From an uncultured Oscillospiraceae bacterium (lineage in GTDB: Bacteria; Bacillota; Clostridia; Oscillospirales; Ruminococcaceae): 64,000 bases of DNA. Made by a program: the position numbers and the translations under genes. Below are positions 13,842 through 21,493 of the stretch, piece by piece (position 1 is the stretch's first letter; every line of letters starts with the position of its first letter). The stretch lies in NCBI GenBank assembly GCA_949737515.1, contig CATJCP010000191.1, forward strand, positions 1-64,000, written 5' to 3'. The notes under the pieces were generated by a model that saw nothing but the letters and a program-made list of their open reading frames with translations, was not told where the DNA came from and made no database searches.

Positions 13842-15314
13842 TCATGCGTCTCCCAGGGCCTTCTCAATCGCCTCAATCAAAATGCGCATGGCCTTGATCC
13901 TGGCATACCGCTTATCTTTGGACTCGATGATATACCAGGGAGCTGCCGCTGTGCTGGTTTTCTGCAGCATATCGTTTACAGCGATTTCGTACTGGGGCCA
14001 TTTTTCCCGGTTCCGCCAGTCCTCGTCAGTGATCTTCCACCTTTTTTCCGGGGTGTTCTGCCGGTTCTGGAACCGCTCCAGCTGGGTGTCGGAGTCAATG
14101 TGGATCCAATATTTTACGACCACCGCTCCCCAGTCCATCAGCTCCTGTTCAAACTCATTGATCTCCGTATACGCCCTTTTCCACTGCTCCTCAGTGCAGA
14201 AGCCTTCAATGCGCTCCACCATAACCCGGCCGTACCAGGTCCGGTCAAAGATGGCCACGTGTCCATCCTTGGGGAGCCTCTTCCAGAACCTCCACAGATA
14301 CTGATGGCGCAGTTCCTCCGGCGTCGGGCTGGCGATGGGCAGCACTTCAAAGCCCCTGGCGTCCAGGGCGTTGGCGATGCGGCGGATGTTCCCTCCTTTT
14401 CCTGCGGCGTCCCATCCCTCATAGGCGATGACCACCGGGATCCGCTTGCGGTAAATGCGGTTGTGGAGCTCTTTCAGCCGCTTCTGGCATTCCTTGAGCT
14501 GCCGGCGGTACTCCTTTTCCTCTATGGAGGGGGAGAGATCGACGGAGGAGATGGGCGGAGCGGGCAGCAGGGAGAACACACCTCCAGGATGGCCGGAGGC
14601 GGGCTTTTTCTGTATGGCCCCGTCGATAGCCTCGCTGAGAATGTGGGTGACCACAGGGAGGGCCTCTTTGGTGTCGGAGGCGTCAATGAGGTGCCAGGGA
14701 TGGTAAGGGGACTGGGTGGCTTCCAGAATTTCATCGTAGACCGCCTCGCACTCCTTGTAATGCTCGTTCTGCCACCGGTCGAACTCGGATACCCTCCAAA
14801 CAGTGTCCTTATTGGCCAGCAAGCGGTCAATCCGGCGCTTCTGCTCCTTGCGGGGAATGTTCAGGAAAAAGCGAACCACCAGATACCCATCGTCGCAGAG
14901 CTGGCGCTCAAATCTGCGGATGCTGTCCAGGCGCTTCTGGAACTGGGCTTTGTCCAGCCTGCCGCTGACCCGGTCCCGCATGGTCTGCTCCACCCAGCCG
15001 GAATCCAGGAATTCCAGCTTCCCGTATTCGGGGATGTGGGTAAAGTAGCGCCACAGCCAGGGGCGGCGGCTTTCGGTCTCGGTGGGGTTGTCAAAGGAAA
15101 TGACGTTGTAAAAGCGGGGATCCAGGTCGCGGATGAGCTTGCTGATGAGGCTTCCCTTCCCCGCCGCGCTCCATCCCTCGATGAGGACAATCACAGGGAG
15201 CTTGCTCTCCCGTACAGAAAGCTGCTGGGAGGAAAGCCGTTCCAGGGCTTGGGCGGTAAGCTGCTTGCGGAGGGCTTTGTCGGTGCCGGGGATTGGTTCC
15301 ATCTGATATAACAT
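13842..15314 (-). CDS. pap: Polyphosphate:AMP phosphotransferase (two-domain PPK2)
   Basis: A 490-residue protein with two tandem PPK2 domains, the architecture of class II PPK2 enzymes that phosphorylate AMP to ADP with polyphosphate. Each half has a P-loop: EGWSAAGKGSLISKL near residue 47 and EGWDAAGKGGNIRRI near 300. The lid regions are also kept (DPRFYNVISF and FDRTWYGRVMVER in the second half). In characterised two-domain enzymes the second domain is the active one, and here it retains the better-conserved FDRTWYGR. GAAAGGAG lies 8 nt before the ATG. It probably links stored polyphosphate to adenylate balance. Confidence 0.93.
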   Translation of the reverse strand: MLYQMEPIPGTDKALRKQLTAQALERLSSQQLSVRESKLPVIVLIEGWSAAGKGSLISKLIRDLDPRFYNVISFDNPTETESRRPWLWRYFTHIPEYGKLEFLDSGWVEQTMRDRVSGRLDKAQFQKRLDSIRRFERQLCDDGYLVVRFFLNIPRKEQKRRIDRLLANKDTVWRVSEFDRWQNEHYKECEAVYDEILEATQSPYHPWHLIDASDTKEALPVVTHILSEAIDGAIQKKPASGHPGGVFSLLPAPPISSVDLSPSIEEKEYRRQLKECQKRLKELHNRIYRKRIPVVIAYEGWDAAGKGGNIRRIANALDARGFEVLPIASPTPEELRHQYLWRFWKRLPKDGHVAIFDRTWYGRVMVERIEGFCTEEQWKRAYTEINEFEQELMDWGAVVVKYWIHIDSDTQLERFQNRQNTPEKRWKITDEDWRNREKWPQYEIAVNDMLQKTSTAAAPWYIIESKDKRYARIKAMRILIEAIEKALGDA

Positions 15315-15835: not shown

Positions 15836-15864
15836 TTTACAAACTGCCAACTTTCTGTTATGAT
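15836..15864 (+). promoter_or_regulatory. Promoter of the lysine-riboswitch transcript
   Basis: TTTACA and TATGAT are separated by 17 bp, about seven bases before the predicted first stem of the aptamer, which is the position expected for a riboswitch promoter. Confidence 0.7.
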
Positions 15865-15870
15865 AGTATA

Positions 15871-16039
15871 CAAGTTAGTAGAGGCGCAAAGGGAAATAGT
15901 ACCCGCCGGAGGAGACATCCCGGGAAGGCGGTGAAAGGGAACTTTGCCGAAGCGGCCGGCAGGTATGGCGGTCAGCTGGGACTTGTGGGAATACCGCAAG
16001 GACTCCTGTGCAAACACACAGAGGAGCTATTGATTGCAA
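15871..16039 (+). ncRNA. Lysine riboswitch (L-box) aptamer
   Basis: The ~168-nt leader carries the conserved lysine-aptamer core in order: TAGTAGAGGCGC, AATAGTA, GGAGGAGACATCC, TGAAAGGGA...GCCGAAG, AGCTGGGA, and the closing strand GGAGCTATTGATTG, which pairs with CAAGTTAGTAG to make P1. It is followed after ~25 nt by an intrinsic terminator, so lysine binding should stop transcription of the permease and peptidase downstream. The match is motif by motif; a covariance search with the Rfam Lysine family should give a high score. Confidence 0.93.
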
Positions 16040-16061
16040 CCTCCATAACCTGATGGAAACT

Positions 16062-16098
16062 AAGGGCTTGCATCATCAATAGATGCAAGCCCTTTTCT
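16062..16098 (+). terminator. Riboswitch expression-platform terminator
   Basis: AAGGGCTTGCAT and ATGCAAGCCCTT form a 12-bp perfect stem followed by TTTTCTAT, located between the lysine aptamer and the permease start codon. Confidence 0.92.
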
Positions 16099-16178
16099 AT
16101 TTGGAAGGCCATGGAATCAGGGCGGCTTGTGTGCCTGCGAACTAAAAAATGCGGAAAACGCAGAAAGAGGAGTTTTTT

Positions 16179-17606
16179 ATGTCCACCCAAAGCGGCTCTC
16201 CGGGAAACCCGGAAAAGAAGAAATTCAAATTAAAGTTTCCCCATCCAGTTGTACTCATGTTTGTCCTGGTTCTCATCCTGTCTGTTCTGAGCTGGATTAT
16301 TCCCGCTGGACAGTACGAAATGGTGCTGGATCCCAACAGCAACCGCATGGTCGTTGACCCCAACAGTTACACGATTGTGGAGAAAAATCCCATCACCCCC
16401 TTTAAGTTCCTCATGTCCTTCCCGGAGGGCATGGTAGCTGCCGCCGAGATTACCTTTTTCATTATGATGACCGGCGCGGCCTTTAACGTCATCACCTCGA
16501 CCGGGGCCATCAACGCCGGTATCGCCCGGCTGGCTTCCGCAGCCCGCAACATGGAATACTTTATGATCCCCCTTGTGGTGCTGGTATTCTCCATCGGCGG
16601 CGCAACCTTTGGCATGGCGGAGGAAAACATCGTGTTCGTCCCTATCGGCATTGCCCTTGCCACGGCCCTGGGGTTTGACGCCATGGTCGGTACGGCCATT
16701 GTTGTCATGGGCGCGGCTGTGGGCTTCTGCGCCGGATTTATGAACCCCTTTACCATCGGCGTCGCCCAGTCCATCGCGGAGCTGCCCATGTTCTCCGGCC
16801 TGCTGTACAGAGGCATTATCTGGGCCGTACTGTGGATCATCACCTCTGCGTTTATCATCCTTTACGCCAAAAAGGTAAAGGCAGACCCTACTAAGAGCAT
16901 TCTTTACGGCGACAATGTGGAAAGAGACCATGTAGACCTTGCCAACATTCCCCCCATGACCCTTCGCCAGAAGCTGGTGCTGCTCACCGTGGCTGCGGGA
17001 CTTGTTCTCTTGGTGCTGGGCGTTGTGCTGTGGGGCTGGTATATCATCGAAATCGCGGCCCTGTTCCTGGGAATGGGAATTCTTTCTGGAATTATTGCCG
17101 GTTACAATCCCACCGAGATCTGCAACCGCCTGTTGGCCGGCGTCACTGAGATTGCCACTGGCGCCATTATGTGCGGCATTGCCCGGGCCATCCTCTTTGT
17201 CATGGAGGAGAGCATGATCAAGGACACCATCATCCACGCCTTGGCGGAATCCATCTCCTTCCTGCCCAAATCCATTGCAGTCCTGGGGATGTACGCAGTA
17301 CAGCTGATCGTCAATTTCCTGATTCCCTCCGGCTCCGGACAGGCTGCCGCCACCATGCCCATTATGACCCCCATTTCCGATGTTCTGGGCATCAACCGTC
17401 AGGTTGCGGTCCTCTGCTTCCAGTTTGGCGACGGGTTTACCAACAACATCCTGCCGGTGTCCGGCACCCTGATGGCCGTCCTCTCTGTGGCGAAGATCTC
17501 CTATGAGAAGTGGTGCAAATTTGTTGGAAAGCTGGTCCTCCTCTGGATTGGGGCGGGAGCTATATTTGTACTGATCGCCAACGCAATCAACTACGGTCCG
17601 TTCTAA
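16179..17606 (+). CDS. YfcC-family permease under lysine-riboswitch control (putative lysine or lysyl-peptide transporter)
   Basis: A 475-residue, ~12-helix inner-membrane transporter of the YfcC/DcuC-like family (PF03606 type). FPHPVVLMFVLVLILSVLSW is the first helix. SIGGATFGMAEENIVF and NFLIPSGSGQAAATMPIMTP are the family's re-entrant-loop motifs. Members are usually called C4-dicarboxylate or basic amino-acid carriers, but few have a proven substrate. The lysine riboswitch directly upstream is the key evidence for lysine, or a lysine-yielding compound, as substrate. The track start at 16149 is replaced by the ATG at 16179, which has AGAGGAG 6 nt upstream. A peptidase of the M20 family follows 98 nt later behind a weak hairpin. 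Confidence 0.88.
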   Translation: MSTQSGSPGNPEKKKFKLKFPHPVVLMFVLVLILSVLSWIIPAGQYEMVLDPNSNRMVVDPNSYTIVEKNPITPFKFLMSFPEGMVAAAEITFFIMMTGAAFNVITSTGAINAGIARLASAARNMEYFMIPLVVLVFSIGGATFGMAEENIVFVPIGIALATALGFDAMVGTAIVVMGAAVGFCAGFMNPFTIGVAQSIAELPMFSGLLYRGIIWAVLWIITSAFIILYAKKVKADPTKSILYGDNVERDHVDLANIPPMTLRQKLVLLTVAAGLVLLVLGVVLWGWYIIEIAALFLGMGILSGIIAGYNPTEICNRLLAGVTEIATGAIMCGIARAILFVMEESMIKDTIIHALAESISFLPKSIAVLGMYAVQLIVNFLIPSGSGQAAATMPIMTPISDVLGINRQVAVLCFQFGDGFTNNILPVSGTLMAVLSVAKISYEKWCKFVGKLVLLWIGAGAIFVLIANAINYGPF

Positions 17607-17636
17607 ATTTCGTTCACCACAAGCAATATGATATGG

Positions 17637-17663
17637 ACAGCCTTTCCGTTTTGGAAGGGCTGT
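17637..17663 (+). terminator. Hairpin between permease and M20 peptidase genes
   Basis: ACAGCCTTTCC and GGAAGGGCTGT (11 bp, one G-T pair) are followed by TTTCAT. It could attenuate read-through or stabilise the upstream mRNA. No separate promoter was found for the peptidase. Confidence 0.55.
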
Positions 17664-17704
17664 TTCATCAGAGAGAATCTATAAAAGGAGCTGTATTCAT
17701 TATC

Positions 17705-18886
17705 ATGTCTGAAATCTTTACTTTAATTCAAAAAAATGCTGAAAACCTTGCCCCGGAACTGTCGGCGGTGAGCCGCGCCCTTTATGACCATCCCGAACTG
17801 GGCAAAGAGGAGGTTTTCGCTTCCGCCCAGCACTGTGCTCTTCTTGAAAAATATGGGTTTGCCGTTGAAAAGGGGATTATGGGAATCGACACTGCCTTTA
17901 AAGCGGTGAAAAAGTCTGTCAAGCCCGGCCCCACCATCGCCTTCCTGGCGGAATATGACGCGCTGCCGGATATTGGCCACGGCTGCGGCCACAACATCCT
18001 GGGGGCCGTCAGCGTCGGGGCCGGCATTGTGGCCGCCAAGATACTAGAGGATGTGGGCGGCGCCATTGAAGTATACGGCACCCCCGCCGAGGAAACCGAC
18101 GGGAGCAAGGCGGCCCTGGCAGACGGCGGGGCCTTTGACAATGTAGACGCGGCCATGATGACCCATCCCAGCGACGCCTACTATAGAAGCGGCTCCACCC
18201 TGGGCATTGTGCCGCTGCGGTTTGAATTTTTCGGGCGGACAGCCCATGCCGCCGCCTGCCCGGAGGAGGGGATCAACGCCCTTCACGCCTGCATCTCCCT
18301 GTTTAATAACATCAGCGCCCTGCGGGAGCACTTCCAGTCTGACGCAAGGGTCCACGGCGTTATCAAAGAAGGAGGAAAGGCGGCCAACGTCGTCCCCGAT
18401 TACACCATGGCGGAATTCTATGTCCGGGCGGAGAAAAAGAGCTATCTGGAAAAGCTGGTGGGACAGATAAAGTCCTGTGCGGAAGCTGCCGCCATGTCCA
18501 ACGGGGCCACGGTGAAGATCACCAACTTTGAGGCCTGCTATGACAATCTGATCACCAACCAGGCCCTTTCGGACCTGTTTACAGAGAATCTCCTCCAGAC
18601 CGGCGTGCCGGAGGTGGAAGGGGCCCGTCCCTCCAAGGGTTCATCGGACGCAGGGAATGTCAGCCAGAAGTGCCCCATGATCCATCCCCATTTCTCCATC
18701 AGCGACCACGGTAAGGTCCCGGGGCACACCAGGGATTTTGCCGCCTGCACCATCACCGATTACGCCAATGAGCAGATGATCCTGAACGTCCGCGCCTTTG
18801 CCATGACGGCATACCAGCTTGTGACCCAGCCGGAGCTGCTGGAAAAAATCAAGGCCGAGTTTAAAGCGGCCATGTCCGAGAAATAA
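17705..18886 (+). CDS. M20-family amidohydrolase/dipeptidase, PM20D2/AbgB-like
   Basis: A 393-residue cytoplasmic metallopeptidase. HGCGHNILGAVSVGAG holds metal ligands, and YGTPAEETDGSK holds the catalytic Glu pair. MTHPSD and a long dimerisation domain (GRTAHAAACPEEGINALHA) follow. The order and the motifs HAAACPEEGINAL and VHGVIKEGG closely resemble PM20D2-type enzymes; the mammalian member hydrolyses beta-alanyl-lysine and related dipeptides. Together with the lysine riboswitch and permease, this suggests intracellular release of lysine from an imported dipeptide or N-acyl-lysine. The ORF track starts 65 codons too early; the ATG at 17705 is preceded by AAAAGGAG, although 14 nt away, so an ATT/ATC start slightly upstream cannot be excluded. 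Confidence 0.9.
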   Translation: MSEIFTLIQKNAENLAPELSAVSRALYDHPELGKEEVFASAQHCALLEKYGFAVEKGIMGIDTAFKAVKKSVKPGPTIAFLAEYDALPDIGHGCGHNILGAVSVGAGIVAAKILEDVGGAIEVYGTPAEETDGSKAALADGGAFDNVDAAMMTHPSDAYYRSGSTLGIVPLRFEFFGRTAHAAACPEEGINALHACISLFNNISALREHFQSDARVHGVIKEGGKAANVVPDYTMAEFYVRAEKKSYLEKLVGQIKSCAEAAAMSNGATVKITNFEACYDNLITNQALSDLFTENLLQTGVPEVEGARPSKGSSDAGNVSQKCPMIHPHFSISDHGKVPGHTRDFAACTITDYANEQMILNVRAFAMTAYQLVTQPELLEKIKAEFKAAMSEK

Positions 18887-18894
18887 CCCGAAAA

Positions 18895-18928
18895 AATGGA
18901 GCGCCCTTTGAAAGGGTGCTTCATTTTG
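18895..18928 (+). terminator. Terminator of the lysine-module transcript
   Basis: AATGGAGCGCCCTTT pairs with AAAGGGTGCTTCATT (15 positions with a few wobbles) around a single base and is followed by TTTG, just after the M20 stop codon. Confidence 0.75.
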
Positions 18929-19898: not shown

Positions 19899-20516
19899 AT
19901 GAAAAAGGTCTGCGCGTTAATTTTTTGTACGCTGCTCAATGCCGCCTGCTTTGTATTTGGATGGTATCTAAGCCTGAACAATTATGGAAATACCTTTTTG
20001 TTCTATATTGGACCTGTTGTCTCTGTCCTGCTCTTTCTATTTCTGGGAAACCTTTTTTACAAGATCCTTCGTTTAAACCGAACAGCATTATGGATTACCA
20101 TGAATATTATGGGCGAGTATTTAGGATGGGTAGGGCTTTCATTCATGACAGAAGAAGCCCCTGCACTGCTGCCAAACTATTTTGGCTTTTTCCATGTTAT
20201 CTTTCTCCGGCTCTTTGTATTTCTTGTGGTTTGGGGTATTATATGGGCCGTTTCCCTGATCCTCCGCAGAATGCAGGAACGGGGCGTAAACCGTGCCAAG
20301 GTGCTTCTGAACTCTGCCGGGGTCCTGCTCTGCCTCCTGTCAGCGGCGGCAATGTGCTTCTCCCTCTTGTTTGACGGCATTTCCGAGGGGGAGGGCGCCA
20401 TCCTCCTCTTTCTTTCGGGAATCTATCTGATTGGTTATATCGCGTTTCAGGTACATAACAGGGAGCAGCGGAGAATTGGACAGGAGGAATACAGCGGATG
20501 GAGGAAGGCGGAATGA
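19899..20516 (+). CDS. Integral membrane protein, paralogue 1 (unknown function)
   Basis: A 205-residue membrane protein with about six hydrophobic segments: residues 5-22, 32-52, 63-84, 92-120, 136-152 and 166-184. It has no soluble domain and no motif I recognise. Its first ~85 residues are clearly homologous to the next gene: NAACFVFGWYL versus NAAFFVLGWYL, and YGNTFLFYIGP versus YGNTFLFYVNP. GGAGGGTCATAG precedes the ATG. Its stop overlaps the next start in the sequence ATGA, so the two are translationally coupled and probably form a heteromeric membrane complex. The function cannot be named. Confidence 0.8.
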   Translation: MKKVCALIFCTLLNAACFVFGWYLSLNNYGNTFLFYIGPVVSVLLFLFLGNLFYKILRLNRTALWITMNIMGEYLGWVGLSFMTEEAPALLPNYFGFFHVIFLRLFVFLVVWGIIWAVSLILRRMQERGVNRAKVLLNSAGVLLCLLSAAAMCFSLLFDGISEGEGAILLFLSGIYLIGYIAFQVHNREQRRIGQEEYSGWRKAE

Positions 20517-21493
20517 AAAAGATCTGCGCCGCCGCCTGTACAACCCTTCTCAACGCCGCCTTCTTTGTATTGGGGTGGTATCTGCTTCTGAAAGGATACG
20601 GCAATACCTTCTTGTTTTATGTCAACCCCATCCTAACTGCGGTTACATTTTTACTGTTGGGAAACTTGTTCCGCAGGCGCATTGGACTGAGCCGGGTGGC
20701 GCTGTGGTTTTCCATGAACCTGCTGGGGGAGATTTTAGGCTGGATTGGACTGTTCCTGCTGTCCCCGGAAATGCTGCGCAATCTGGCGGGAGTATTCTTC
20801 ATTATGTTCTTCCGGATCTTTATGTTTGCCATTGTCTGGGGGGCTGTGGGCATTCCCTGGATGCTCTTCCGGCTGCTGCGGAATTGGGGTGAAAGCCGGG
20901 ACCGGAAGATTGTCCAACAGTCCCTGGCGGAGGCCGCCAATCCCTCCCCAGCTTCCCGGCCGGCCCGCCAAAGGAACCTGGAAAAATGGAAGGAACTGCT
21001 GAAAACTGTGGGGATAGGCCTGTGCGGACTGTCGGTTTTGCTGATGGGCTTTTCCTTCTACTACTTCTATCAGGAGCGTCCCGCCGAGGCGTATGAGGAC
21101 AAGGGCATATACACCTTCCAGGCTAAAAACGTCTACCCCACTCAGGTAAAGAACACCACCAGCCGCTACAACCGCCGCCAAACCACCCGGACAGTTTATA
21201 TTGTCGAATACCGGGCAGCAGAACACAGCGGCTACCGCTGGAAGGAAGAGGCCCCCGCCCAGTCTGTTGGAAAGCAGTGGATCCGGGAGGGGAAAACAAC
21301 CCAGCGCAGGGTGCTTTCCATCAAGGACACCAATCAATACATCACCATCGATCCCCAATACACGGCGGAAACCTATGTCAGCCGCAACAAGTGGAGATAC
21401 GCCTGGATCCTTCTGGCCTCAGCGGCCTATCTCACCTTTTATTCCATCTATCAGGTCCAGAAGCGGGAGAGAAAGCGGCTGGAAGAAGCTTAA
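20513..21493 (+). CDS. Integral membrane protein, paralogue 2 with extracytoplasmic insert (unknown function)
   Basis: A 326-residue protein. The N-terminal half repeats the topology of the preceding paralogue. After a cytoplasmic Pro/Arg-rich loop (~145-160) and a further helix (~166-186), a ~115-residue soluble domain follows (YTFQAKNVYPTQVKN, TTRTVYIVEYRAAEHSGY, QYITIDPQYTAETYVSR), then a last helix. The insert looks like a beta-rich domain of the kind seen in DUF3592-like membrane proteins, but I do not recognise it with confidence. I chose the ATG at 20513 rather than 20498 because it matches the paralogue's MKK start, has GGAGG 8 nt upstream and gives the ATGA overlap. A strong terminator follows. 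Confidence 0.8.
   Translation: MKKICAAACTTLLNAAFFVLGWYLLLKGYGNTFLFYVNPILTAVTFLLLGNLFRRRIGLSRVALWFSMNLLGEILGWIGLFLLSPEMLRNLAGVFFIMFFRIFMFAIVWGAVGIPWMLFRLLRNWGESRDRKIVQQSLAEAANPSPASRPARQRNLEKWKELLKTVGIGLCGLSVLLMGFSFYYFYQERPAEAYEDKGIYTFQAKNVYPTQVKNTTSRYNRRQTTRTVYIVEYRAAEHSGYRWKEEAPAQSVGKQWIREGKTTQRRVLSIKDTNQYITIDPQYTAETYVSRNKWRYAWILLASAAYLTFYSIYQVQKRERKRLEEA

Follow-up and report, generated by a model that had tools for sequence, protein, structure and literature searches.

We describe a locus of an uncultured, gut-type Oscillospiraceae bacterium in which a lysine riboswitch (L-box) precedes yfcC, the gene of an IT-superfamily permease, and a gene for an M20D amide hydrolase. The locus lies on contig CATJCP010000191.1 of assembly GCA_949737515.1, within its first 64,000 nucleotides (nt), hereafter called the window (Table 1). 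We propose, with a probability of roughly one half, that it is a lysine-repressed lysine-acquisition operon in which YfcC takes up L-lysine and the M20D protein is an accessory hydrolase. At high cytoplasmic lysine the aptamer would close its P1 helix, the terminator would form and transcription would halt. At low lysine the 3' strand of P1 would pair into the terminator region, and yfcC and the M20 gene would be transcribed. YfcC, a relative of the arginine/ornithine exchanger ArcE, would most likely take up L-lysine, probably via exchange or ion coupling, while the M20D protein would free lysine from small peptides or N-acyl-lysine in the cytosol, and both genes would thus raise the lysine pool.

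The aptamer scores 76.6 bits against RF00168 in cmscan (E = 3e-18; gathering score 30 bits) and covers all 182 positions of the model. Its core motifs AGAGG, AGUA, GAAAGG, GCCGAA and CUGG are unbroken, and chance is ruled out as the source of the match. The intrinsic terminator behind it has 13 base pairs (bp) and a T-run (−22 kcal/mol, z = −6.8). Both elements had been called unambiguous in an earlier sequence-only reading of this DNA, and they are borne out here. If the 3' arm of the terminator is withheld in folding, the 3' strand of P1, CUAUUGAUUGCAA, pairs with UUGCAUCAUCAAUAG (16068-16082). The three nearest relatives retain this antiterminator through compensatory changes (CUAUUGAU with AUCAAUAG in the window versus CUAUCGAUG with CAUCGAUGG in relative G004), and its duplex energy is matched by shuffled terminator sequences in at most 1% of trials. 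An intrinsic terminator was present within 70 nt of the aptamer in all 25 L-box-yfcC leaders examined. Due to the combination of a terminator with a matching antiterminator, the anatomy of the leader is consistent with a transcriptional OFF switch, a polarity that we infer from the folds. Canonical L-boxes precede asd-dapA-dapB in the same genus, thus these genomes regulate their lysine supply by L-box. Promoter-like matches of this kind are no commoner than in shuffles, so that only its position argues for the one upstream of the aptamer.

The permease belongs to the DcuC family with 331.5 bits to PF03606 (gathering cut-off 23.1; model positions 1-459 of 461), in agreement with the earlier assignment to the YfcC type. 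Its start is supported by an AGGAG at 8 nt spacing and by homologues that begin there; the first ATG, at 16149, is too early by both the Shine-Dalgarno sequence and the homologue alignment. The protein is 32% identical to E. coli YfcC and 33% identical over 448 amino acids (aa; 260 bits) to the YfcC encoded in the arc operon of an E. coli plasmid, and by homology it classes with the ArcE-type basic amino acid exchangers (transporter classification, TC, 2.A.118). It reaches no equivalog cut-off, with 343 bits against the 500 demanded by NCBIfam NF008611, and it exceeds the Pfam cut-off for AbgT (PF03806) with 42.6 versus 27 bits. An AlphaFold2 model built from 47 homologues (mean predicted local distance difference test score 88, predicted template modelling score 0.84) best matches the AbgT-family proteins YdaH and MtrF with a template modelling (TM) score of ~0.68, which supports a predicted IT-superfamily fold. 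Membership in the NhaC/LysW group was considered and rejected because of the Pfam assignment to DcuC. Several YfcC homologues of 37-45% identity are labelled "Na+/H+ antiporter NhaC family" by NCBI, and for this reason surveys of L-boxes that go by gene name may miss YfcC members filed under "NhaC/LysW".

ArcE exchanges free arginine and ornithine at micromolar affinity and has high affinity for lysine too (PMC5300872). The ArcE-type gene of S. suis goes by the name arcD and shares a transcript with arcT, which is predicted to encode an Xaa-His dipeptidase (PMC4129364). A dipeptidase neighbour alone therefore does not make a transporter a carrier of conjugates. ArcE and the streptococcal arcD-arcT pair (TC 2.A.118, IT superfamily) resemble the window in joining a YfcC-type basic amino acid exchanger with a predicted dipeptidase gene, arcT being likened by description, not by sequence. 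They differ from it in that they belong to the arginine deiminase pathway and have no lysine riboswitch; the ~33% identity is that between the window YfcC and the arc-operon YfcC.

The arrangement of L-box, yfcC and M20D gene is already published and thus new to the usual transporter lists, not to science. A review from 2024 on the riboswitches of C. difficile places a lysine riboswitch before CD3100-3099, a yfcC and an M20D amidohydrolase gene in an apparent operon of uncharacterised function (PMC11477304). Regulator class, permease family, M20D family and gene order are the same as in the window, whereas the variant aptamer junction described below belongs to the window's aptamer, and the review gives neither a substrate nor a survey nor an aptamer analysis. 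Table 2 of a lysine riboswitch survey from 2017 names the transporters LysP/GabP, LysW (NhaC), YvsH and LysXY and leaves YfcC unmentioned (PMC5584792). These are uptake genes controlled by lysine riboswitches, as the window yfcC appears to be, but Pfam places the window protein in DcuC and not with LysW in NhaC. In most bacteria YfcC is a "putative basic amino acid antiporter" without an assigned substrate. Because yfcC has been placed under such riboswitches repeatedly and apparently independently, lysine or a lysine derivative is a concrete candidate substrate, also for the C. difficile operon. If this holds, YfcC would be a further class of lysine-regulated transporter besides LysP, LysW, YvsH and LysXY.

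The second protein matches PF07687 and, with 198 bits against a cut-off of 154, TIGR01891. The residues C94, H96, E129, E130, H154 and H341, which we presume to be metal-binding or catalytic, are intact and at least 95% conserved among 24 L-box-linked homologues, so that the protein is a member of M20D. Its best matches in the PDB are HmrA (3ram, 267 bits) and then PM20D2, the "Xaa-Arg dipeptidase" (7yh4, 212 bits). The resemblance to PM20D2 that had been noted earlier holds insofar as both are related M20D enzymes. HmrA is closer, and for this reason a specificity for beta-Ala-Lys like that of PM20D2 does not follow from similarity. PM20D2 is a beta-alanyl-lysine dipeptidase according to Veiga-da-Cunha 2014, as cited in PMC13311154, and HmrA is called a Met-X carboxydipeptidase in the title of Jamdar 2015, as cited in PMC11511702. 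Both share the sequence family and the presumed catalytic residues with the window protein; unlike it, they have no tie to lysine regulation, and the substrates reported for these cellular peptidases are others. Similarity thus puts the window protein in M20D and fixes no lysine substrate; the stronger case for lysine comes from the riboswitch.

For comparison, YfcC homologues were gathered from the window's family, its class, three further groups and 80 named genome loci. L-boxes were found by a regular expression for the core motifs, with an Infernal/cmscan check on the main sets and further close members added by motif. At the loci that were checked the strict expression was free of false positives; a looser second one gave false matches and was ignored. 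The survey yielded 31 distinct L-box-yfcC loci. On the YfcC tree they fall into nine clades made up of L-box loci throughout and require at least nine state changes. yfcC has therefore come under lysine sensing repeatedly and apparently independently. They occur in the window clade and a further genome of its family, in Aerococcaceae (with Ruoffia and Vaginisenegalia among them), in a clade that surrounds an Erysipelotrichaceae genome, in genomes of Peptostreptococcales type and elsewhere. Within the window's family it is rare for yfcC to have an L-box (5 genomes out of 199), while some lysine riboswitch is present in 170 of the 199. An HmrA/PM20D2-like M20 gene follows yfcC in 24 of the 31 loci, so the synteny which the sequence-only reading had suggested searching for recurs in other lineages and supports the linkage at the window. 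A different M20 type follows in two (L119, L256) and no M20 in five. Cmscan of many YfcC loci found no unrelated riboswitch directly upstream of yfcC, a finding that had been named as one that would count against a lysine connection; thiamine pyrophosphate and flavin mononucleotide elements were far off or on the opposite strand. In E. coli, YfcC homologues occur on 240 plasmid records. The one inspected (pRCS52, L230) has the YfcC-family exchanger inside an arcA-arcC-argF-yfcC-argR cluster.

The solo loci bear on the role of the hydrolase. Four are in Aerococcaceae genomes and one is in a Peptostreptococcales-type genome, and in three of these five genomes (G834, G836 and G838) no close M20 homologue was found anywhere. 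Thus, hydrolysis is not obligatory and the permease is useful alone. Together with the free basic amino acids carried by ArcE, this suggests that YfcC most likely carries lysine and that M20 is optional. That YfcC carries free lysine itself we consider an about even proposition.

Several points weigh against a lysine-repressed uptake of lysine. For transport, ligand binding and enzyme activity at this locus the proposal draws on sequence and analogy. The solo genomes could use other peptidases. YfcC genes often neighbour genes of amide hydrolases that differ in fold, a hint of conjugate substrates. The HmrA/PM20D2-like M20 adjoins yfcC in 24 of 31 loci with L-box versus 41 of 222 without (raw Fisher p 1e-6 to ~1e-10), but the excess is not significant on the tree (independent pairs 4.4 versus 0, median p = 0.125) and is therefore suggestive. 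Finally, the window aptamer departs from the consensus at its variant junction, close to the presumed ligand site, so that lysine is a predicted ligand.

Tentatively, YfcC could instead import a lysine dipeptide or N-acyl-lysine which the M20D protein hydrolyses inside the cell, the salvage route that the sequence-only reading had favoured. The model for such a route is AbgT with AbgAB, which serve p-aminobenzoyl-glutamate uptake followed by intracellular cleavage. The predicted AbgT-like fold, the passed AbgT cut-off and the M20D hydrolase are shared with that system, whereas the PF03806 score of the window YfcC is low in absolute terms, and substrate and regulation differ. The fold gives no direction of transport either, since the solved AbgT-fold structures among the matches listed are labelled efflux pumps or transporters with an unusual topology. 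An M20 gene of some type stands next door in 26 of the 31 L-box-yfcC loci, and one L-box clade (L119, L256) substitutes a different type, as if a hydrolase were needed; the five loci without M20, three of them in genomes without a close homologue, argue the other way. YfcC genes without an L-box adjoin ArgE-like deacylases and amidohydrolases. On E. faecium and E. raffinosus plasmids (L229, L234) YfcC follows a fructoselysine 6-kinase gene, a SIS-domain deglycase-like gene, a GntR regulator and an amidohydrolase, and is there a candidate transporter of fructoselysine, a modified lysine. Against this, the substrates of ArcE are free amino acids even though a predicted dipeptidase gene adjoins its gene (PMC5300872, PMC4129364), and HmrA, the closest solved relative of the M20 protein, has another reported specificity. 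Import of a conjugate is a less likely reading for YfcC than free lysine; it is not required and is weakened by the solo loci, by ArcE and by the HmrA-like hydrolase.

It is unlikely that the M20 gene is a passenger without functional tie to the riboswitch, with a role as general dipeptidase or in metabolite repair. A hairpin of 12 bp between the two genes, a possible partial attenuator or processing site, could partly insulate it. The window genome has further HmrA/PM20D2-like genes elsewhere, and both the five loci without M20 and the loss of significance after phylogenetic correction fit a passenger. However, the M20 gene adjoins yfcC on the same strand, no more than ~100 nt away, both in the window clade and in the majority of the remaining L-box clades, which span distant families.

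The aptamer itself raises the question of its ligand. At J4/5-P5-J5/1 the window has ACUCCUG...CAGAGGnGCU where the typical consensus is ACUGuCA...UGgAGnGCU, while the whole-model score is still far above the threshold; this consensus is a typical feature outside the curated threshold of RF00168. Canonical L-boxes, including those before asd-dapA in congeners, read ACUG(P5)AGnGCUA. The variant junction was found in 25 distinct aptamers, comprising the yfcC L-boxes of the window clade, L119, L256 and others (window, L295-L324, L338, L343, L345, L361, L364, L119, L256). The first three pairs of the variant P5 form in all 25, with two-sided changes between loci. Outside the window's family a class-wide search matched two genomes only, and in at least one of them the variant P5 cannot form. 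The targets of the 25 aptamers, which are those of the window clade and of 21 other loci, are APC permeases (12), yfcC (6), amidohydrolase genes (4) and NhaC-like genes (3), and none is a lysine biosynthesis gene. In contrast, at least 44 of ~69 sampled canonical L-boxes precede asd or dapA, the others NhaC-like genes, ABC transporter genes (LysXY-like) and one yfcC. The raw Fisher p of this contrast is ~1e-8, with a canonical sample biased to high-scoring matches and kinship ignored. Congeners hold both aptamer types and keep the canonical one on asd-dapA.

On these grounds the variant aptamer might sense another basic amino acid or a lysine derivative, or lysine with altered affinity, and the operon might handle that compound, but we regard this as quite improbable. 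The core motifs are unbroken, and orthologous yfcC-M20 and NhaC genes stand under canonical L-boxes in other lineages, which is most simply read as a shared ligand. With yfcC and NhaC genes found under either type of aptamer, lysine is the likeliest ligand of the variant. The variant, nearly confined to the window's family and located before transport and amide-hydrolase genes only, could also be a subclass of lysine-type riboswitches with a rebuilt junction whose ligand is a lysine conjugate or some other basic amino acid. In that case YfcC and M20 would form a pathway devoted to the uptake and cleavage of this compound, a reading that we hold to be doubtful. The limitation of the variant to transport-type targets allows a direct test for drift in the specificity or affinity of a lysine riboswitch. 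Mapping the junction onto numbered ligand contacts was unreliable and is not used as evidence.

An amidohydrolase-like gene (~460 aa, YtcJ-like by eye) stands directly under a lysine-type riboswitch in L312, L313, L314 and L343, and is absent from the list of lysine riboswitch transporter targets in PMC5584792. On contig C53 of genome G102, ~2.5 kb separate the variant L-box before this gene (L313) from a canonical L-box that precedes yfcC-M20 (L228).

Table 1 Features of the lysine riboswitch locus, with positions in the window.
Feature	Positions	Strand	Basis
Promoter-like TTTACA-17-TATGAT with extended TG	15836-15864	+	Consensus scan
Lysine riboswitch aptamer (L-box)	15871-16037	+	RF00168, cmscan
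Variant junction J4/5-P5-J5/1, ACUCC(P5)GAGGnGCUA	16002-16029	+	Comparison across 25 distinct loci
P1 3' strand, also antiterminator 5' arm	16027-16039	+	Folds; pairing kept in relatives
Intrinsic terminator hairpin, then TTCTATTT	16062-16094	+	Folding
yfcC, IT-superfamily permease, 475 aa	16179-17606	+	PF03606; start from Shine-Dalgarno sequence and homologues
Intercistronic hairpin, 12 bp, weak T tail	17636-17664	+	Hairpin search
M20D amide hydrolase, HmrA/PM20D2-like, 393 aa	17705-18886	+	Profile and PDB matches
Hairpin after M20 gene, 16 bp	18893-18927	+	z = −4.85

The hairpin after the M20 gene probably ends the transcription unit. Farther downstream, two small membrane proteins with similar N-terminal halves are encoded in overlapping tandem at 19899-20516 and 20498-21493, the first of them without an NCBIfam match. 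The divergent upstream neighbour (13842-15314, minus strand) encodes a two-domain PPK2, a polyphosphate:AMP phosphotransferase (TIGR03708, 582 bits).

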